Shown here: positions 15,714 through 59,520 of the stretch, one piece after another | How the letters are laid out: each line of letters starts with the position of its first letter | How positions within the stretch are numbered: the first letter of the stretch is position 1 | From: Puniceibacterium sp. IMCC21224 | Lineage (GTDB): Bacteria; Pseudomonadota; Alphaproteobacteria; Rhodobacterales; Rhodobacteraceae | Reading direction: 5' to 3' | Assembly: GCF_001038505.1 (NCBI RefSeq) | Contig: NZ_LDPY01000001.1 | Coordinates: 2,356,001-2,420,000 of the forward strand | DNA length: 64,000 bases | The notes under the pieces: model-generated | What the model saw: the letters and a program-made list of their open reading frames with translations, nothing else | Database searches by the model: none | What the model was told of the DNA's origin: nothing | Made by a program: the position numbers and the translations under genes

Positions 15714-16856
15714 ATGCCCCTAGACGCGCACAAGCTCAATTCGCTTGGCCTGCCCAAACCGCCGTCGCAGACCCGTGTGGTCGTCGCGATGTCCGGCGGC
15801 GTGGACAGTTCCGTTGTGGCGGCCATGCTGGCCGAAGAGGGATACGATGTCATCGGCGTGACGTTGCAGTTGTACGATCACGGCGCAGCGCTGGCCAAAA
15901 AAGGCGCCTGTTGCGCCGGGCTAGATATTCACGACGCGCGCCGCGTCGCCGAGACAATGGGATTTCCGCACTACGTGCTTGATTACGAAAACGTTTTTCG
16001 AGACGCGGTGATTGATGAATTCGCCGACAGCTACCTTGGGGGCGCCACGCCCGTGCCCTGCATCCGCTGCAATGAAAGGGTCAAGTTCAAGGACTTGCTG
16101 GAAACCGCACGCGATCTCGAGGCGGACTGTATGGCGACCGGCCACTACATCCAGCGCAAGATGGGCGCCCACGGGGCTGAGTTGCACAGCGCGGCTGATG
16201 CCGCCCGTGACCAAAGCTACTTCTTGTTCTCGACAACTGCCGAACAGCTTGACTACCTGCGATTTCCGTTGGGTCACCTGCCATCCAAAGCCGAAACTCG
16301 TGCGCTTGCGGCGAAATACGGTCTGAGCGTCGCCGACAAACCCGACAGTCAGGACATCTGCTTTGTCCCTGACGGCAACTACGCCGCTGTGATCGAAAAG
16401 CTGCGGCCAGGCTCTGCCGAGCCGGGCGAAATTGTCGATGTGGCGGGCAACGTGCTCGGTACTCACAACGGCGTGTTGCGCTATACAGTGGGCCAGCGCC
16501 GGGGGCTGGGCATCGGCGGGCTGGTGGATCCGCTTTATGTGGTGCGGCTTGATGTGGATAAAAAACAGGTCATCGTTGGACCAAAGGACATGCTGTCGAC
16601 CAGAACGGTGCCGGTGCGCGAGATTAACTGGCTCGGAGACGAGCCACTGGACAGCCGGTCGGAATGGATGGTGTCGGTCAAGGTCCGCTCGACCCGGCCC
16701 CCGCGCGAAGCAATCCTGCGGCCCCTGTCGGCAACCACGGCCGAAGTCGAATTGCTGACGCCCGAAGACGGCGTGTCACCCGGTCAGGCCTGCGTGTTCT
16801 ATCAGACCGAAGGCAGCCGGATTTTGGGCGGCGGCTGGATCTGGCGCGGAATCTGA
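15714..16856 (+). CDS. mnmA: tRNA 2-thiouridylase MnmA
   Basis: 380 residues. PP-loop [14 protein letters not shown] binds ATP; the catalytic Cys pair is in [14 protein letters not shown] and [10 protein letters not shown]. It inserts sulfur into U34 of Lys, Glu and Gln tRNAs. An N-terminal extension of about 20 residues precedes the PP-loop, common in alphaproteobacteria. It appears monocistronic, divergent from sciP, with its own promoter. Confidence 0.96.
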
Positions 16857-33410: not shown

Positions 33411-33734
33411 ATGCAAATTCCGCCCCGAGTCACCCCCCGTGCCTTTACCCGGCTGGCCGAGATCGGCGCCGGTGATCAGGGCCAGGCGCTGCGCGTCGCA
33501 GTCGAAGGCGGCGGCTGTTCTGGTTTTCAATACGACATCACGCTCGGCGCACCGGAAGACGGCGATCTGGTGCTCGAAGGTCAGGGCCAGAAGGTTGTTG
33601 TCGATTCGGTATCGCTGCCGTTCCTGTCCGATGCCGTGATCGACTTTAGCGACGAGCTGATCGGCGCGCGGTTCGTGATCGAAAACCCGAATGCCACATC
33701 GTCCTGCGGCTGCGGTACATCGTTTTCGATGTAA
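33411..33734 (+). CDS. erpA: A-type iron-sulfur carrier (ErpA/IscA family)
   Basis: 107 residues. The three ligand Cys are present: VEGGGCSGFQYDI and, at the C-terminus, SSCGCGTSFS. A-type carriers deliver Fe-S clusters to target enzymes. GGATG near the ATG serves as a weak ribosome site. It is divergent from the dGTPase-like gene and followed by a strong hairpin. ErpA versus IscA cannot be decided firmly. Confidence 0.88.
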   Translation: MQIPPRVTPRAFTRLAEIGAGDQGQALRVAVEGGGCSGFQYDITLGAPEDGDLVLEGQGQKVVVDSVSLPFLSDAVIDFSDELIGARFVIENPNATSSCGCGTSFSM

Positions 33735-33899: not shown

Positions 33900-34817
33900 T
33901 CAGACCGCGAGAGACTCGCGACGGCGTGGGACAAGTTCGTCCGCGATCAGCCAGAGGCCAGAGGCAATCACCAGCGCGACACCTATCATCGTGCCCGATC
34001 CCGGCACCTCACCAAATGCCACGAACCCGATTGCCACCATCCAGACGAACTGAAGATTCATCAGTGGTGTTGCCACATAGGCCGGCAACAGGCGGAGGGC
34101 CACGACCACAACCCAACGGGCAAAGAACAGGAACGTCGCATAGGCTGCGATCCAGCCCAGATCGGCCAGCGCCATCGGCTGCCAGACAAACGGAAGCGCC
34201 ACGCCCATCACCACGAGAATCGCCAGGTTGGGGTAAAAAACCTGCGCCAGCGCGTTGGTTTCGACCCGACCGATATAGCGCGACGCCACCATAGATCCGG
34301 TTCCGGTCAGAGCCGCCAGAAGCGCCCAGAAATGTCCGGGCTGCAAACCCGACAGGCCCCCCGGCATCAGACAAATCACCCCCAGAGTCCCAAGTCCAAG
34401 CGCGGCCCAGGCCTGCGGACGGATCGGTTCGTCCAGAACCGGACCGCTGAGAAGTGCAGCGATCACCGGCATCAAGCCAATAAACAGAAAGACATCCGCG
34501 AACGGCAGCAGCCGAAAGGCCTGAAAAAAGCCGACGCAGGCCAGCACTGTCAGCAGCGAGCGCACGGCCATCGCACGTGGGCACCGGGTGGTGAGCCGCC
34601 CCGCCCCGGTCACGCCGTCTGCCCCCCCCGGCAGTCCGAACGGCGTCCGGCTGACTCCATAGGCCAGCGCCAGCACGATCCCGGCCGAGAGACAGAAAAG
34701 CTGCGGTGCTGCAAAGCTGCCAGAGATATGTTTGGTGATCCCGTCAGCGGCGGAAATCATCAGCGTGTAGAGCGCCACCAGCACGGCGCCCATGACAGCG
34801 GGACGTAAGCCACTCAC
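33900..34817 (-). CDS. EamA-family (DMT superfamily) transporter
   Basis: 305 residues with ten predicted membrane helices in two EamA repeats; the first half has PFADVFLFIGLMPVIAALLSG and the second AYVATPLMNLQFVWMVAIGF. DMT proteins of this kind usually export small metabolites or amino acids. The GTG start at 34817 overlaps the TGA of the preceding 368-residue protein (GTGA), so the two are translationally coupled, which places this transporter in the repeat-peptide operon and makes it a candidate exporter. EamA proteins are not known peptide exporters, so a substrate link is inference. Confidence 0.85.
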   Translation of the reverse strand: MSGLRPAVMGAVLVALYTLMISAADGITKHISGSFAAPQLFCLSAGIVLALAYGVSRTPFGLPGGADGVTGAGRLTTRCPRAMAVRSLLTVLACVGFFQAFRLLPFADVFLFIGLMPVIAALLSGPVLDEPIRPQAWAALGLGTLGVICLMPGGLSGLQPGHFWALLAALTGTGSMVASRYIGRVETNALAQVFYPNLAILVVMGVALPFVWQPMALADLGWIAAYATFLFFARWVVVVALRLLPAYVATPLMNLQFVWMVAIGFVAFGEVPGSGTMIGVALVIASGLWLIADELVPRRRESLAV

Positions 34818-35920
34818 GCGCTTTGTTCCATCATGCTGCCGTGACGCAGCGAATCCAGACGCGGGGCGTCCGGGCGGGCGAAGCCGTGAAAGAACGCCTC
34901 AAAATGGTCCGACTTCTCGGCTGAGGCCAGAACATCTAACGCGCCAGGCGACAGGTTGTCCGCGATCCGGTCCCGCATGTGCAGCCAGTCACCAGAGCGC
35001 GCGCCATCCATACTGAACATGAATTCGGACATTTCGCGCAGTGGCGCACTGTCCTGTGTGGCGCGATCAAAGCGCATCCGTCCGGACAGGATTGTCCCTG
35101 AAAAGATCGGAGCACCAGTGGTGGCCTGATGCCAATTGCACACCAGATAATCGTGGTAGGCGTCGTGAATGTCGATATCGGGATCACCGGTCACGGTGAA
35201 ACCATAGGTTTCGCGCGCCAGCCAATCCGACCAGAGCGGTGGTGGAACCTCTCCCGCGTAGATCAGTGCCACACAAATTTCGGCCAGCAGATCGGCATTC
35301 TGATCGAGATAGGCCAGCAGGCCGGAGAAATGCAGCGAAGTCACCGCCGATGCATCTAGCTGCGGATCGAACCGGCCATATTCGCTGAGATAGAATACCG
35401 CGTGCGTCAGTTCATATGCCGCCTTTTTGTTCGGCAATGCAAAGGTTTGCGAGCGGCTAATAAAGCTTCTCATCCGCCCCTCGAGCCCGGCATCAGTCGG
35501 CAGGGGGTCACGACCCCGACGGGTCATCAGGCGGCGGGCTTCCATCCGTTGCAGGTCGGACATTTCCGCATGAGCCAGATCCTGAGACACCGCCCAGTCG
35601 ACCAGCTGCTCGGCTTTGTTGCCCTTCATCCCCAAGGCTTCGAGATCGAGCGTGATCGACAGCAAGAAGCGATAGTATTGCGGAAAGAAGCTCATTCGCT
35701 GTTCCACGGTGTCGTAGAAGGCCTGATGCGACGCCAGAGCGCCATCCGGCAATTCGGTGCCGGTGCTTTCAAGGACGTTCAGGATCTCGGCGTTTTCCTT
35801 GAGCCAGAATACATCGTCGCCGGTGCGGCGCTCGGCCGCAAAGCTGTGCAGAAGCGCGCCAAAGCGCGCCTCTTGCCGCTGGACCCGGGACGGAACACGC
35901 AGTTGGATGACATTACTCAT
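34814..35920 (-). CDS. Uncharacterised protein with His motifs, middle gene of the repeat-peptide operon
   Basis: 368 residues from the ATG at 35920, preferred over one two codons upstream because the AGGGAG element is then 7-8 bases away. No signal peptide or membrane helix; it appears largely helical. Two notable motifs are YELTHAVFYLSEYG at about 169-182 and HDAYHDYLVCNWH at about 252-264, the latter spacing His residues (H-x3-H-x7-H) in a way that could bind metal. I recall roseobacter relatives filed as a domain of unknown function (DUF6902), but cannot verify this. It lies between the repeat peptide and an EamA transporter, so a modifying or maturation role is possible. No function should be assigned. 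Confidence 0.75.
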   Translation of the reverse strand: MSNVIQLRVPSRVQRQEARFGALLHSFAAERRTGDDVFWLKENAEILNVLESTGTELPDGALASHQAFYDTVEQRMSFFPQYYRFLLSITLDLEALGMKGNKAEQLVDWAVSQDLAHAEMSDLQRMEARRLMTRRGRDPLPTDAGLEGRMRSFISRSQTFALPNKKAAYELTHAVFYLSEYGRFDPQLDASAVTSLHFSGLLAYLDQNADLLAEICVALIYAGEVPPPLWSDWLARETYGFTVTGDPDIDIHDAYHDYLVCNWHQATTGAPIFSGTILSGRMRFDRATQDSAPLREMSEFMFSMDGARSGDWLHMRDRIADNLSPGALDVLASAEKSDHFEAFFHGFARPDAPRLDSLRHGSMMEQSA

Positions 35921-35944
35921 GGTCATTCTCCCTTTGGGTTTCGT

Positions 35945-35967
35945 GGGAGGGGCTGTTGCCCCGTCCC
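35945..35967 (-). promoter_or_regulatory. Hairpin between repeat-peptide gene and the next gene
   Basis: GGGGC (35949-35953), TGTT loop and GCCCC, extended by GGGA/TCCC with one bulged base, makes a 9-bp stem in the 61-bp gap. There is no T run, so it would attenuate or protect the first cistron rather than end all transcription. Confidence 0.5.
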
Positions 35968-35981
35968 GATCCGTTCAAAGC

Positions 35982-36521
35982 TCAGGAGCCCGAAGTGAAG
36001 AGCGCGCAGCCGTCGCCAGCAGCGGTCATTGTGGTCTTCGGTGCGGAGCCCGAGGTGAACATCTCAACCGCGTCGCCGGTGGTTGCCTTGGTGCCAGCCG
36101 GTGCGGAGCCCGAAGTGAACATCTCAACCGCGTCGCCGGTGGTTGCCTTGGTGCCAGCCGGTGCGGAGCCCGAGGTGAACATCTCAACCGCGTCGCCGGT
36201 GGTTGCCTTGGTTCCAGCCGGTGCGGAGCCCGAAGTGAACATCTCAACCGCGTCGCCGGTGGTTGCCTTGGTGCCAGCCGGTGCGGAGCCCGAGGTGAAC
36301 ATCTCAACCGCGTCGCCGGTGGTTGCCTTGGTGCCAGCCGGTGCGGAGCCCGAGGTGAACATTTCGACCGCGTCGCCCATCAGCGCATTGCCGAGGGTCT
36401 GGGGCGAAGAGCCGGAAGTGAAGAGCGAGCAGCCGTCACCACCGTGAAGATCGGTTGTCATGCGTCCTTTCGTCACATGAGAAGAAACGTTCGAAAAAAC
36501 TGTTTTGCGTTGAGCGGTCAT
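35982..36521 (-). CDS. Tandem-repeat FTSGS peptide (possible multi-core precursor)
   Basis: 179 residues from the ATG at 36521 (GGAG 8 bases upstream). A second ATG at 36461, with AAGGA 5 bases upstream, would give 159 residues; both are plausible. Residues 1-30 form a leader-like N-terminus. Then come eight FTSGS motifs, at 34-38, 55-59 and every 20 residues to 175-179. Six lie in GDAVEMFTSGSAP units, five of which continue AGTKATT; the first and last are GDGC(S/A)LFTSGS, each with one Cys. The protein ends exactly on FTSGS. No signal peptide or membrane helix. I recall FTSGS-type proteins in roseobacters as a domain of unknown function, not verified. It opens an operon with an uncharacterised protein and a transporter, so a modified-peptide precursor is one reading; a structural or adhesive repeat protein is another. 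Confidence 0.75.
   Translation of the reverse strand: MTAQRKTVFSNVSSHVTKGRMTTDLHGGDGCSLFTSGSSPQTLGNALMGDAVEMFTSGSAPAGTKATTGDAVEMFTSGSAPAGTKATTGDAVEMFTSGSAPAGTKATTGDAVEMFTSGSAPAGTKATTGDAVEMFTSGSAPAGTKATTGDAVEMFTSGSAPKTTMTAAGDGCALFTSGS
36041..36375. repeat. 60-bp tandem repeat inside the FTSGS gene
   Basis: Exact 60-bp period with five complete copies (36061-36360) and partial copies on each side. Copies differ only at a few positions, mainly CGAGG versus CGAAG and one G-to-T at 36213. The alternation GAG, GAA, GAG, GAA, GAG, GAG across units suggests duplication in blocks of two. There are no spacers, so it is not a CRISPR array. Confidence 0.95.
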
Positions 36522-36603
36522 TGTCGTCTCCAGGGTTAAATTCCACTCCCTGACGCTTGCACGTGTTAATTGTTTCTCAAAATGTTTTTCTCTTAATGCG
36601 TGT

Positions 36604-36700
36604 TTATCCAAATACTTATCCACGTGAGTTCACGCGTACAGTTATATGGTGGAGGTTTGCTTCGTTAAGTTATCCACAGGCAAAAGAAAATTTATCCCAA
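36604..36700 (+). promoter_or_regulatory. Cluster of DnaA-box-like sequences
   Basis: One exact TTATCCACA (36670-36678), one TTATCCACG (36616-36624) and two weaker versions (TTATCCAAA at 36604, TTATCCCAA at 36692), all on the plus strand, in a locally A+T-rich gap of 367 bp between the repeat-peptide gene and xthA. No gene is supported in this gap. Two CACGTG palindromes (36560 and 36621) are also present. Confidence 0.4.
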
Positions 36701-36888
36701 GGCGGTAAACCGCTGGGTTCCTGACGAATCACTTACTCTTGCAGTCGACCCACGCGTCACGCAAAGGTGGAATCAGTTCGGTCTCTGACACAGAGTGTAT
36801 CACACCTGACACAGATTTAGACAGTCTTGACGCTTGTTCGCGTCGGGCATTTGGGCAATAGATCAGCCACATCACGAGGGGAACGCAC

Positions 36889-37671
36889 ATGCGGATTGCC
36901 AGCTTCAACATCAACGGAATCAAGGCACGGGTCGGCGCACTGACCGACTGGCTCGATGAGTCACAGCCTGACGTCGTGCTGTTGCAGGAAATCAAGTCGG
37001 TCGACGACGGGTTTCCGTCCGAGTTGTTCGAAGATCGCGGCTACAACGTTGCCACTCATGGTCAAAAAGGTTTCAACGGCGTGGCGATCCTGTCCAAGCT
37101 GCCGCTCGAGGATGTGACCCGCGGCCTGCCCGGCGACGACAGCGACGAACAGGCCCGCTGGATCGAAGCGACTGTGGTCGGCGATCATTCGGCGGTTCGG
37201 CTCTGTGGGTTGTATTTGCCGAACGGCAATCCGGTGCCGGGGCCAAAATATGACTATAAACTGGCGTGGATGCAGCGGCTTGAAGCCCGCGCAAAGGCAT
37301 TACTGGAGGCAGAGATGCCCGCGCTGATGGCTGGCGATTATAACGTCATCCCCCAGCCAGAGGACGCGGCCAAGCCCGAGTCCTGGACCGAGGACGCGCT
37401 ATACCTGCCGCAGACGCGGGCGGCGTTCCGGCGGATCCTGAACCTTGGCTTTACCGAGGCATTTCGCGCGCGGACCAACGGTCCGGGGCATTATTCGTTT
37501 TGGGATTACCAGGCCGGAGCCTGGAACCGGAACAACGGAATCCGCATCGACCACTTCCTGCTCAGCCCCGCCTGCGCTGACATGATGACTGATTGTCAGA
37601 TCGACCGCGACGTTCGGGGGCGCGAAAAACCGTCGGACCATGTGCCGGTCTGGGTCGAGCTGGTCGCCTAG
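36889..37671 (+). CDS. xthA: Exodeoxyribonuclease III
   Basis: 260 residues. Endonuclease/exonuclease/phosphatase fold with the family order: ASFNINGIKAR at the start, VVLLQEIK with the metal-binding Glu, the GDYNVIPQPED centre, and the C-terminal SDHVPVW with the catalytic Asp-His. It cuts at abasic sites and trims 3' blocks in base-excision repair. GAGGGGAACGCAC precedes the ATG. Monocistronic as far as I can see. Confidence 0.95.
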   Translation: MRIASFNINGIKARVGALTDWLDESQPDVVLLQEIKSVDDGFPSELFEDRGYNVATHGQKGFNGVAILSKLPLEDVTRGLPGDDSDEQARWIEATVVGDHSAVRLCGLYLPNGNPVPGPKYDYKLAWMQRLEARAKALLEAEMPALMAGDYNVIPQPEDAAKPESWTEDALYLPQTRAAFRRILNLGFTEAFRARTNGPGHYSFWDYQAGAWNRNNGIRIDHFLLSPACADMMTDCQIDRDVRGREKPSDHVPVWVELVA

Positions 37672-58425: not shown

Positions 58426-59520
58426 TCAGCGATACAGCAGCGAAATGCCCTTGTGGAACAGATGCACCTTTTCCGGCACCGCGCCCAGTTTCACGCTGGT
58501 CCCGCGTAACCCGGAGTGGATGCCCGGCAGCTTGCCGATGATCGCGTCACCGCCGTCCTGCTTTTCGAAATACAGCAGCGTGACTTCGCCCAGTGCCTCA
58601 GTGATGGCGACCTTGCCGTCAAAGATGTAGTCAGCGCCCGGCTGCACCTCTAGAAAATCCTCGGGCCGCACGCCGACGTTGACCTTGATCCCCATATCAA
58701 CCGCATGGGAAGGATATAGCGATACCGCCGTGCCGCCACCGTTCATGCGAATTGTAGTTCGCTCGCCGGTGCCGACCACCTCACCCGGCATCAGATTCAT
58801 CGCGGGTGAGCCAATGAACTGCGCCACAAATTCGCCGTTGGGCCGTTCGTACAATTCAAGCGGCGTTCCGACTTGCGCGATCCCCTTATTCGCCAGCACG
58901 ACGATACGTGTGGCCAGCGTCATCGCCTCGACCTGATCATGGGTGACATAGATCATCGTCGAATTCGGCATCGATTCCTTGAGCTGCGCAATCTCGATCC
59001 GGGTGGCGACACGCAGGGCAGCGTCGAGGTTCGACAGAGGTTCGTCAAACAGATAGACCTTGGGATCGCGCACGATGGAGCGACCGATGGCAACCCGCTG
59101 GCGTTGCCCACCCGACAGCGCCTTGGGCAAACGGTCGAGATAGGGTTCAAGTTGCAGAATTTTCGCCGCCTTGTTCACGGCGGCATCAATTTCGGTCTTG
59201 GATTTTTTGGCAATTTTCAGCGCAAAGCTCATGTTGTCGCGCACCGTCATATGTGGATAAAGTGCGTAACTTTGGAACACCATGGCAATGCCGCGCTGCG
59301 CCGGGGGCACATCGTTGACCCGCTGACCGTCGATTTCCAGCGTCCCGTCGGTGATTTTTTCCAATCCGGCAATCATCCGCAGCAAGGTGGATTTACCGCA
59401 GCCCGACGGCCCGACAAAGACGATCAGTTCGCCCTGCTGGATGTCCAGGTTGATGTCCTTCAACACATTGACGGCACCCCCATAGGTTTTGGCGACGTCC
59501 GTCAGCTTGAGGTTGGCCAT
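58426..59520 (-). CDS. aglK: Alpha-glucoside ABC transporter ATP-binding protein
   Basis: 364 residues. GPSGCGKST Walker A, LSGGQRQRVAIGRS signature, DEPLSNLDAALR Walker B and a C-terminal TOBE region. UgpC/MalK family. It closes the agl cluster, 13 bp after aglA on the same strand. The name agl rests on the gene order aglE-F-G-A-K. Confidence 0.88.
   Translation of the reverse strand: MANLKLTDVAKTYGGAVNVLKDINLDIQQGELIVFVGPSGCGKSTLLRMIAGLEKITDGTLEIDGQRVNDVPPAQRGIAMVFQSYALYPHMTVRDNMSFALKIAKKSKTEIDAAVNKAAKILQLEPYLDRLPKALSGGQRQRVAIGRSIVRDPKVYLFDEPLSNLDAALRVATRIEIAQLKESMPNSTMIYVTHDQVEAMTLATRIVVLANKGIAQVGTPLELYERPNGEFVAQFIGSPAMNLMPGEVVGTGERTTIRMNGGGTAVSLYPSHAVDMGIKVNVGVRPEDFLEVQPGADYIFDGKVAITEALGEVTLLYFEKQDGGDAIIGKLPGIHSGLRGTSVKLGAVPEKVHLFHKGISLLYR

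Follow-up and report, generated by a model that had tools for sequence, protein, structure and literature searches.

The 64,000-nucleotide stretch of Puniceibacterium sp. IMCC21224 analysed here (contig NZ_LDPY01000001.1, positions 2,356,001 to 2,420,000; hereafter the window) carries on its reverse strand an operon of three genes, encoding an FTSGS-repeat protein, a protein of the family DUF6902 and an EamA transporter. The operon is rather likely to be a multi-core system of the ribosomally synthesised and post-translationally modified peptide (RiPP) type, in which DUF6902 would modify the repeated cores, most likely by epimerisation. The logic of a multi-core peptide, with identical cores, a leader and a tailoring enzyme, had been proposed in a preliminary description of this DNA, and it gains support from the co-occurrence of the repeat gene with DUF6902, from core identity within proteins as compared with that between them, from a joint loss at one locus, and from the homology of DUF6902 to DUF6895. 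The parts of the operon are as follows.

35982..36521, reverse strand: repeat (putative precursor) gene, 179 aa, stop included (open reading frame (ORF) 36521-35985), identified by ORF reading and a family profile
35985..36422, reverse strand: core region with the FTSGS copies, delimited by motif positions and core statistics
35921..35981, reverse strand: intergenic stretch of 61 bp with a GGGGC/GCCCC hairpin and no T-run, from sequence and folding
34814..35920, reverse strand: DUF6902 (PF21843) protein, 368 aa, stop included (coding 35920-34817), Pfam E 2.6e-173
33900..34817, reverse strand: EamA transporter of the drug/metabolite transporter (DMT) type, GTG start, an optional part, identified by Pfam

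The repeat protein

Eight copies of FTSGS stand at residues 34, 55, 75, 95, 115, 135, 155 and 175 of the 179-residue protein, the last forming its C-terminus, exactly as first described. The 20-residue period given in that description holds for the later spacings, but the first measures 21 residues. Following a leader that starts MTAQRK, the unit GD(A/G)xxxFTSGS is repeated eight times, and Tandem Repeats Finder (TRF) reports a period of 60 bases with 5.7 copies and a 97% match. The leader of the window protein contains no signal-peptide-like stretch, and a crude hydropathy screen found none in 132 of 132 repeat proteins. NCBIfam has no match for the protein, and the Pfam families Herpes_UL35 and DUF4245 were rejected, both falling below cut-off. 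A phage origin was also rejected, PHROGs giving just two matches to the repeat stretch (function unknown, 25.5 and 18.4 bits) and none to DUF6902, as was a defence origin, for PADLOC has no match for the repeat protein or DUF6902 and matches EamA at 14.1 bits only.

Pairing of the repeat gene with DUF6902

Among 292 genomes of the order Rhodobacterales, 81 encode DUF6902 (80 over the cut-off). A repeat profile matches 74 genomes, all within these 81, and none of the 211 others (Fisher p 1e-61, kinship ignored). The profile derives from 20 repeat proteins encoded at DUF6902 loci, with no more than 13 candidates scored per genome; very unlike repeat genes may escape it. Seven DUF6902 genomes were missed, of which five carry a divergent repeat gene recognisable by eye (cores MTSVA, MPTSN, SSTC twice, and QSFSAP), one (G117, locus L057) has no repeat gene, and one (G177) has merely a weak DUF6902 match.

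At the level of loci, 160 DUF6902 loci were reduced to 151 non-redundant ones, 146 of which have upstream sequence and five of which do not. Of the 146, 145 have a repeat gene upstream of DUF6902, contrary to the case raised in the preliminary description of a middle protein that always occurs without the FTSGS gene; L057 is the sole locus of the 146 with no repeat gene upstream. The 145 comprise 136 with a 4-residue word present at least three times, eight with such a word twice in a family-like ORF, and L063, in which two unlike cores were seen by eye. The three-copy word test is passed by 19 of 510 control ORFs, taken from these loci with lengths of 90-400 aa, against 136 of 146 loci. The gap between repeat gene and DUF6902 has a median of 65 nt and a maximum of 343 (136 loci).

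A complete three-gene operon was also observed outside Rhodobacterales, at L222 (G710, from another class of the phylum), where DUF6902 (343 bits) directly follows a repeat gene and is itself followed by EamA (48 bits). The repeat protein there has 76 aa with three (F/L/Y)GCYT copies, and its EamA is 36% identical to that of the window.

Evolution of cores and spacers

Core statistics cover those proteins in which the search pattern matches three times or more (136 of 146), with 974 repeats in all. Within a protein, identity reaches 0.97, 0.95 and 0.94 at positions 2, 4 and 5 of the core, against 0.48, 0.38 and 0.39 between proteins, where the conservation at positions 1-4 is partly built in, since the search pattern presets residue classes there. 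The comparison of FTSGS with the linker, suggested earlier, separates the two clearly, the core standing at 0.94-0.97 within a protein and spacer positions 8-10 at 0.26-0.36. The flanks behave differently from the core: Gly at -6 scores 0.94 within and 0.92 between proteins, and Pro at 7 scores 0.71 and 0.60. Pairs of repeats share an identical core at a rate of 0.86 within a protein and 0.08 between proteins. Third codon positions differ at 0.43 among copies of the same core, near the linker value of 0.57 (112 proteins), which indicates that the copies are old and are kept equal by selection on amino acids rather than by recent DNA copying.

The dominant cores fall into 37 types in 136 proteins, each with at least two residues of S, T or C, and a FastTree phylogeny of 135 DUF6902 proteins requires 50 or more switches of core type. 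Most cores fit F-[TS]-[ST]-x-x; others include FTCGL, FVSAS, FITSM, IMSAS, MPTSN and MTSVA. A protein holds about 2 to 20 copies. The flush C-terminal core described for the window protein does not extend to a general rule, as 98 of 137 repeat proteins end on a core.

The DUF6902 protein

The 368-aa protein passes the curated cut-off of DUF6902 at 576.3 bits against 27, and also that of DUF6895 (PF21836) at 82.7 bits against 23.8 (E 3.8e-23). It had been described as lacking a recognised function; this stands insofar as Pfam assigns none, but the protein belongs to a known family, which counts 1466 proteins at E <= 0.001. The nearest named DUF6902 loci are from Puniceibacterium, with 68-72% identity. 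Conserved positions map to the following codons.

35402..35416, reverse strand: Y169 and H173 (YELTH), invariant in 14 DUF6902/DUF6895 rows, lost in L057
35279..35293, reverse strand: D210 and E214, invariant in the 14 superfamily rows
35153..35155, reverse strand: H256, kept in 149 of 149 DUF6902 rows

G182 and A203 are likewise invariant across the 14 rows compared. The 149-row DUF6902 alignment omits L079 and L081, which are short. The H-x3-H-x7-H motif previously pointed out as a feature of this protein was rejected as a metal motif, because H252 and H264 vary among these rows and H256 alone of the three histidines is conserved. At L057, DUF6902 carries Y169R, H173R, D210S, E45A and Y82H, all five positions being kept in the other 148 rows; the precursor and the putative enzyme residues are lost jointly at this locus.

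The predicted model of DUF6902 is mostly alpha and may be toroid-like, and its best structural matches are alpha/alpha-toroid enzymes, namely class II terpene cyclases and protein prenyltransferase beta subunits. The likeness is one of structure only, and a common fold does not show function: searches of PDB sequences gave no useful match and no sequence relation to alpha/alpha-toroid enzymes. The search against sequence and structure databases that had been recommended for this protein succeeded on the side of Pfam, with DUF6902 and DUF6895, but Foldseek returned nothing significant. The literature searched does not name DUF6902, and DUF6895 is named in a single paper.

Relatives in DUF6895

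A member of DUF6895 is, by the title of the report, a lasso-peptide epimerase (Shi et al., ACS Catal. 2026, doi 10.1021/acscatal.5c08590; cited in PMC13352647). DUF6902 shares with it a superfamily by profile, with the DUF6895 rows compared the Y/H/D/E invariants and, as far as that title goes, a presumed ribosomal-peptide substrate; it differs in being a separate Pfam family and in having a putative multi-core pentapeptide precursor of a different type. Ten DUF6895 matches over cut-off lie outside DUF6902 operons; the sub-cut-off matches L203, L204, L217 and L219-L221, along with L209 and L210, are excluded from this comparison. A clear short gene for a leader-type peptide stands directly upstream in four of the ten (L205, L206, L207 and L228, the last with a DUF6895 match of 42.6 bits). 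These peptides have one or two aromatic core-like stretches, and their leaders have in common a ...G(I/A)(I/V)(D/N)... stretch and a Trp.

Two of the loci merit separate mention. The L205 protein matches a Rhizobium sp. CF122 record, and at L205:6771-8700 a C70/C39-type peptidase, two paralogous leader peptides, a major facilitator superfamily transporter and an O-methyltransferase stand beside DUF6895, which makes this locus a peptide-cluster candidate in its own right. At L208:8112-8405, a short DUF6895 match is closely preceded by a 97-aa ORF, which may be another peptide gene; the genome belongs to the same family and lacks DUF6902.

Epimerases acting on RiPPs are of several kinds, and PMC10406935 lists radical S-adenosylmethionine (SAM) enzymes, alpha/beta-hydrolases and the calcineurin-like MslH, a Ca(II)-dependent lasso epimerase that targets a C-terminal residue. 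MslH resembles the present case as a peptide epimerase encoded with its precursor, DUF6902 being here the candidate epimerase, and differs from it in its calcineurin-like fold, the predicted DUF6902 model being mostly alpha.

Proposed mechanism

The operon combines an encoded precursor, a leader and conserved cores beside an enzyme gene, as a RiPP system does, with DUF6902 as the presumed modifying enzyme. In the proposed scheme, the repeat protein would be a cytosolic precursor in which a leader of ~30 residues is followed by pentapeptide cores, here FTSGS, separated by GD(A/G)xxx and AP-type spacers. DUF6902 would bind this precursor and modify every core, the most likely reaction being epimerisation at an alpha-carbon; a target at core position 3 (Ser/Thr/Cys) is a guess. 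The likely active site would consist of Y169, H173, D210, E214 and H256 in the toroid-like cavity of the predicted model. The cores would then be cut out by a peptidase whose gene lies elsewhere, giving many copies of a single short peptide, and at loci with EamA this transporter would be the exporter; so small a product would suit the DMT type.

The pairing of the genes, the contrast between core and linker evolution, the homology to DUF6895, the joint loss and the conserved promoter boxes are direct findings; the steps of the scheme are inferred from them and differ in strength. Modification of the cores by DUF6902 is quite probable. That the modification is an epimerisation draws on the analogy with DUF6895 and has a chance somewhat short of even, and cleavage and export of the cores are reasonably probable. 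A bolder version, in which DUF6902 is a stand-alone toroid-like epimerase that makes many-copy short peptides with D-amino acids, a new class with cores switching between species and a DnaA-box promoter, serving as a replication-coupled, lineage-private signal or effector of marine Rhodobacterales, seems unlikely to hold in full.

Should the scheme hold, 81 of the 292 genomes sampled in Rhodobacterales, roughly one in four, would make an unrecognised peptide product, and the DUF6902 family, with its 1466 proteins and no function assigned by Pfam, would gain a substrate. The precursors would also offer a natural library, with 37 dominant cores in 136 proteins, for studying enzyme tolerance and product function.

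Comparison with known systems

On the best reading, the operon represents in outline a new RiPP class, set apart from the lasso and FxSxx-COOH families because their defining enzymes are missing from it. Pfam finds no lasso leader peptidase or cyclase in the operon, and none was seen among the conserved neighbours, which were read by eye and not profile-scanned. Cyanobactins and fungal dikaritins resemble the present precursor in carrying multiple core copies between spacers, and they differ from it in their enzymes, in having proteases or oxidases within the cluster, and in their unrelated hosts. Literature on FTSGS, FSSGS and FTSWS has titles that look unrelated among the matches listed, and RiPP literature combined with EamA, Roseobacter or multi-core gave nothing relevant among the matches listed.

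Alternative explanations

Several observations weigh against a modified multi-core peptide. The epimerase link consists of low-identity homology, DUF6902 being 14-20% identical to the DUF6895 rows compared, together with one title. No peptide gene was found at five of the ten DUF6895 loci (L223-L227), four of which match just 86-91 positions of the profile, and L208 has a doubtful one only. EamA follows DUF6902 in 99 of 148 loci and was not found in the other 49. Some repeat proteins mix two cores, such as FSSGS with FTTSV, and some have a tail beyond the last core, short in the FTSWS type; the residue classes preset by the core search pattern count on the same side. The central repeat copies of the window gene are near-identical DNA by TRF, and recent duplication therefore also contributes to their likeness. 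A perfect DnaA box is absent from 41 of 131 operon promoters. The remaining adverse points, which concern the lack of a peptidase, the fixed position of the operon and the predicted structure of the precursor, bear on particular rivals. The rival closest to the proposed scheme keeps the multi-core peptide and gives DUF6902 another chemistry, such as dehydration, cyclisation, acyl or prenyl transfer, or another modification of Ser, Thr or Cys. It is possible, though the weaker proposition, given that DUF6902 is homologous to DUF6895, an epimerase by title; and most dominant cores lack Cys, so lanthionine formation or farnesylation cannot be the general reaction.

Quite another reading leaves the repeat protein uncut, as a multivalent scaffold whose identical motifs serve to dock a partner, be it DUF6902 or another protein, that co-evolves with them. 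Identical motifs with drifting spacers would fit docking sites too, Pfam matches over cut-off in the operon are to DUF6902, DUF6895 and EamA only, with no peptidase found, the operon sits at a fixed chromosomal site between a divergent xthA-like and a convergent HesB/ErpA-like gene, and the DnaA boxes suggest a cell-cycle role. The conservation of putative active-site residues, the leader/core peptides adjoining some DUF6895 relatives and the flush ends of 98 of 137 repeat proteins nevertheless make such a scaffold improbable. A structural protein, for example a beta-solenoid with DUF6902 as an accessory, is more doubtful still. It would agree with the AlphaFold model of the precursor, in which two short strands per repeat form a solenoid-like beta-strand pattern (mean predicted local distance difference test score (pLDDT) 60.6, predicted template modelling score (pTM) 0.58) and 47 of 179 residues have a pLDDT of 70-90, but this model was built from 10 repeat-protein sequences and is of low confidence, with residues 1-24 below a pLDDT of 50, and tandem repeats can be modelled as solenoids without being so. 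The N-terminus is not signal-peptide-like, the repeat profile is found solely with DUF6902, and the core count ranges from about 2 to 20, all of which argue against a structural role. Least credible, to the point of being very nearly dismissed, is a radical-SAM FxSxx-COOH (FxsB-type) cyclophane system acting in trans on F-x-S. FTSGS-COOH does fit the F-x-S-x-x-COOH pattern of these systems (NCBIfam TIGR04269), and the genome has an FxsB-like radical SAM match at 124 bits; the cut-off, however, is 370, the match lies ~210 kb from the operon, and of 14 control genomes 11 likewise give a sub-cut-off match to this model. The genome has no FxsB over cut-off and NCBIfam no match for the precursor, the operon lacks the radical SAM enzyme that such systems need, FxSxx-COOH peptides have one C-terminal motif rather than many, and the cores FTTSM, FTCGL and MPTSN are not F-x-S. 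The sub-cut-off match is a radical SAM/SPASM protein at G000:C1:2602417-2603472.

DnaA boxes in the promoter

In the stretch 36522-36888, between the repeat gene and its divergent neighbour, a scan for 9-mers found three boxes.

36670..36678, forward strand: perfect DnaA box TTATCCACA
36604-36612, forward strand: DnaA-box-like 9-mer with one mismatch, TTATCCAAA
36616-36624, forward strand: DnaA-box-like 9-mer with one mismatch, TTATCCACG

Perfect boxes precede the repeat gene at 90 of 131 operon loci. The 131 promoters contain 142 perfect boxes in total, against 0.36 expected from locus background and 0.25 from shuffles, and the 24 usable xthA promoters of operon-less genomes contain none. The nearest box lies 107-116 nt from the repeat start and 203-252 nt from xthA (interquartile range, 85 loci). 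According to PMC4285127, TTATCCACA is the high-affinity DnaA box of E. coli; the Caulobacter counterpart is TGATCCACA. Since the boxes are so frequent in the promoter, expression of the operon is probably tied to DnaA and hence to the replication cycle, and the promoter boxes would then couple peptide production to that cycle. A chromosomal origin at the boxes was rejected, as dnaA lies ~1.7 Mb off on the same contig, and it is at least 1.3 Mb from the operon in six other genomes with both on one contig. Perfect TTATCCACA 9-mers also occur elsewhere in the window, at 16553-16561 and 59252-59260.

GANTC, a CcrM-type site, is enriched ~225-300 nt upstream of the repeat gene, with 344 sites in 131 loci against 44.7 expected from locus background, and it is near background at 24 operon-less xthA loci. 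This enrichment is given less weight than the DnaA boxes because shuffles already yield 180 sites.

Operon layout and flanking genes

The 61 bp and the hairpin noted earlier between the repeat gene and DUF6902 were both found again, the GGGGC/GCCCC stem having a folding z of -1.6; an intrinsic terminator was rejected, the scan finding no terminator-like site in this gap. The overlap of the middle gene's stop with the start of EamA was also borne out, TGA and GTG being merged as GTGA, and the EamA start has a median position of -3 relative to the DUF6902 stop (99 loci). EamA, the exporter of the first account, is not essential to the system, being present at 99 of 148 loci only. Two genes, read by eye, border the conserved site.

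36889..37671, forward strand: divergent flanking gene, which we take to be xthA-like
33411..33734, forward strand: convergent flanking gene at the other border, 107 aa, presumably HesB/ErpA-like

Spread by plasmids was rejected, as tblastn of a plasmid collection at 0.001 gave no match. The operon-less set comprises 24 genomes with 25 xthA stretches, 24 of them with usable upstream sequence; an ErpA-like gene lies within 1.5 kb upstream of xthA in 16 of the 25. Where the operon is present without EamA, an ErpA-like ORF is plainly the next gene in 8 of 13 loci inspected.

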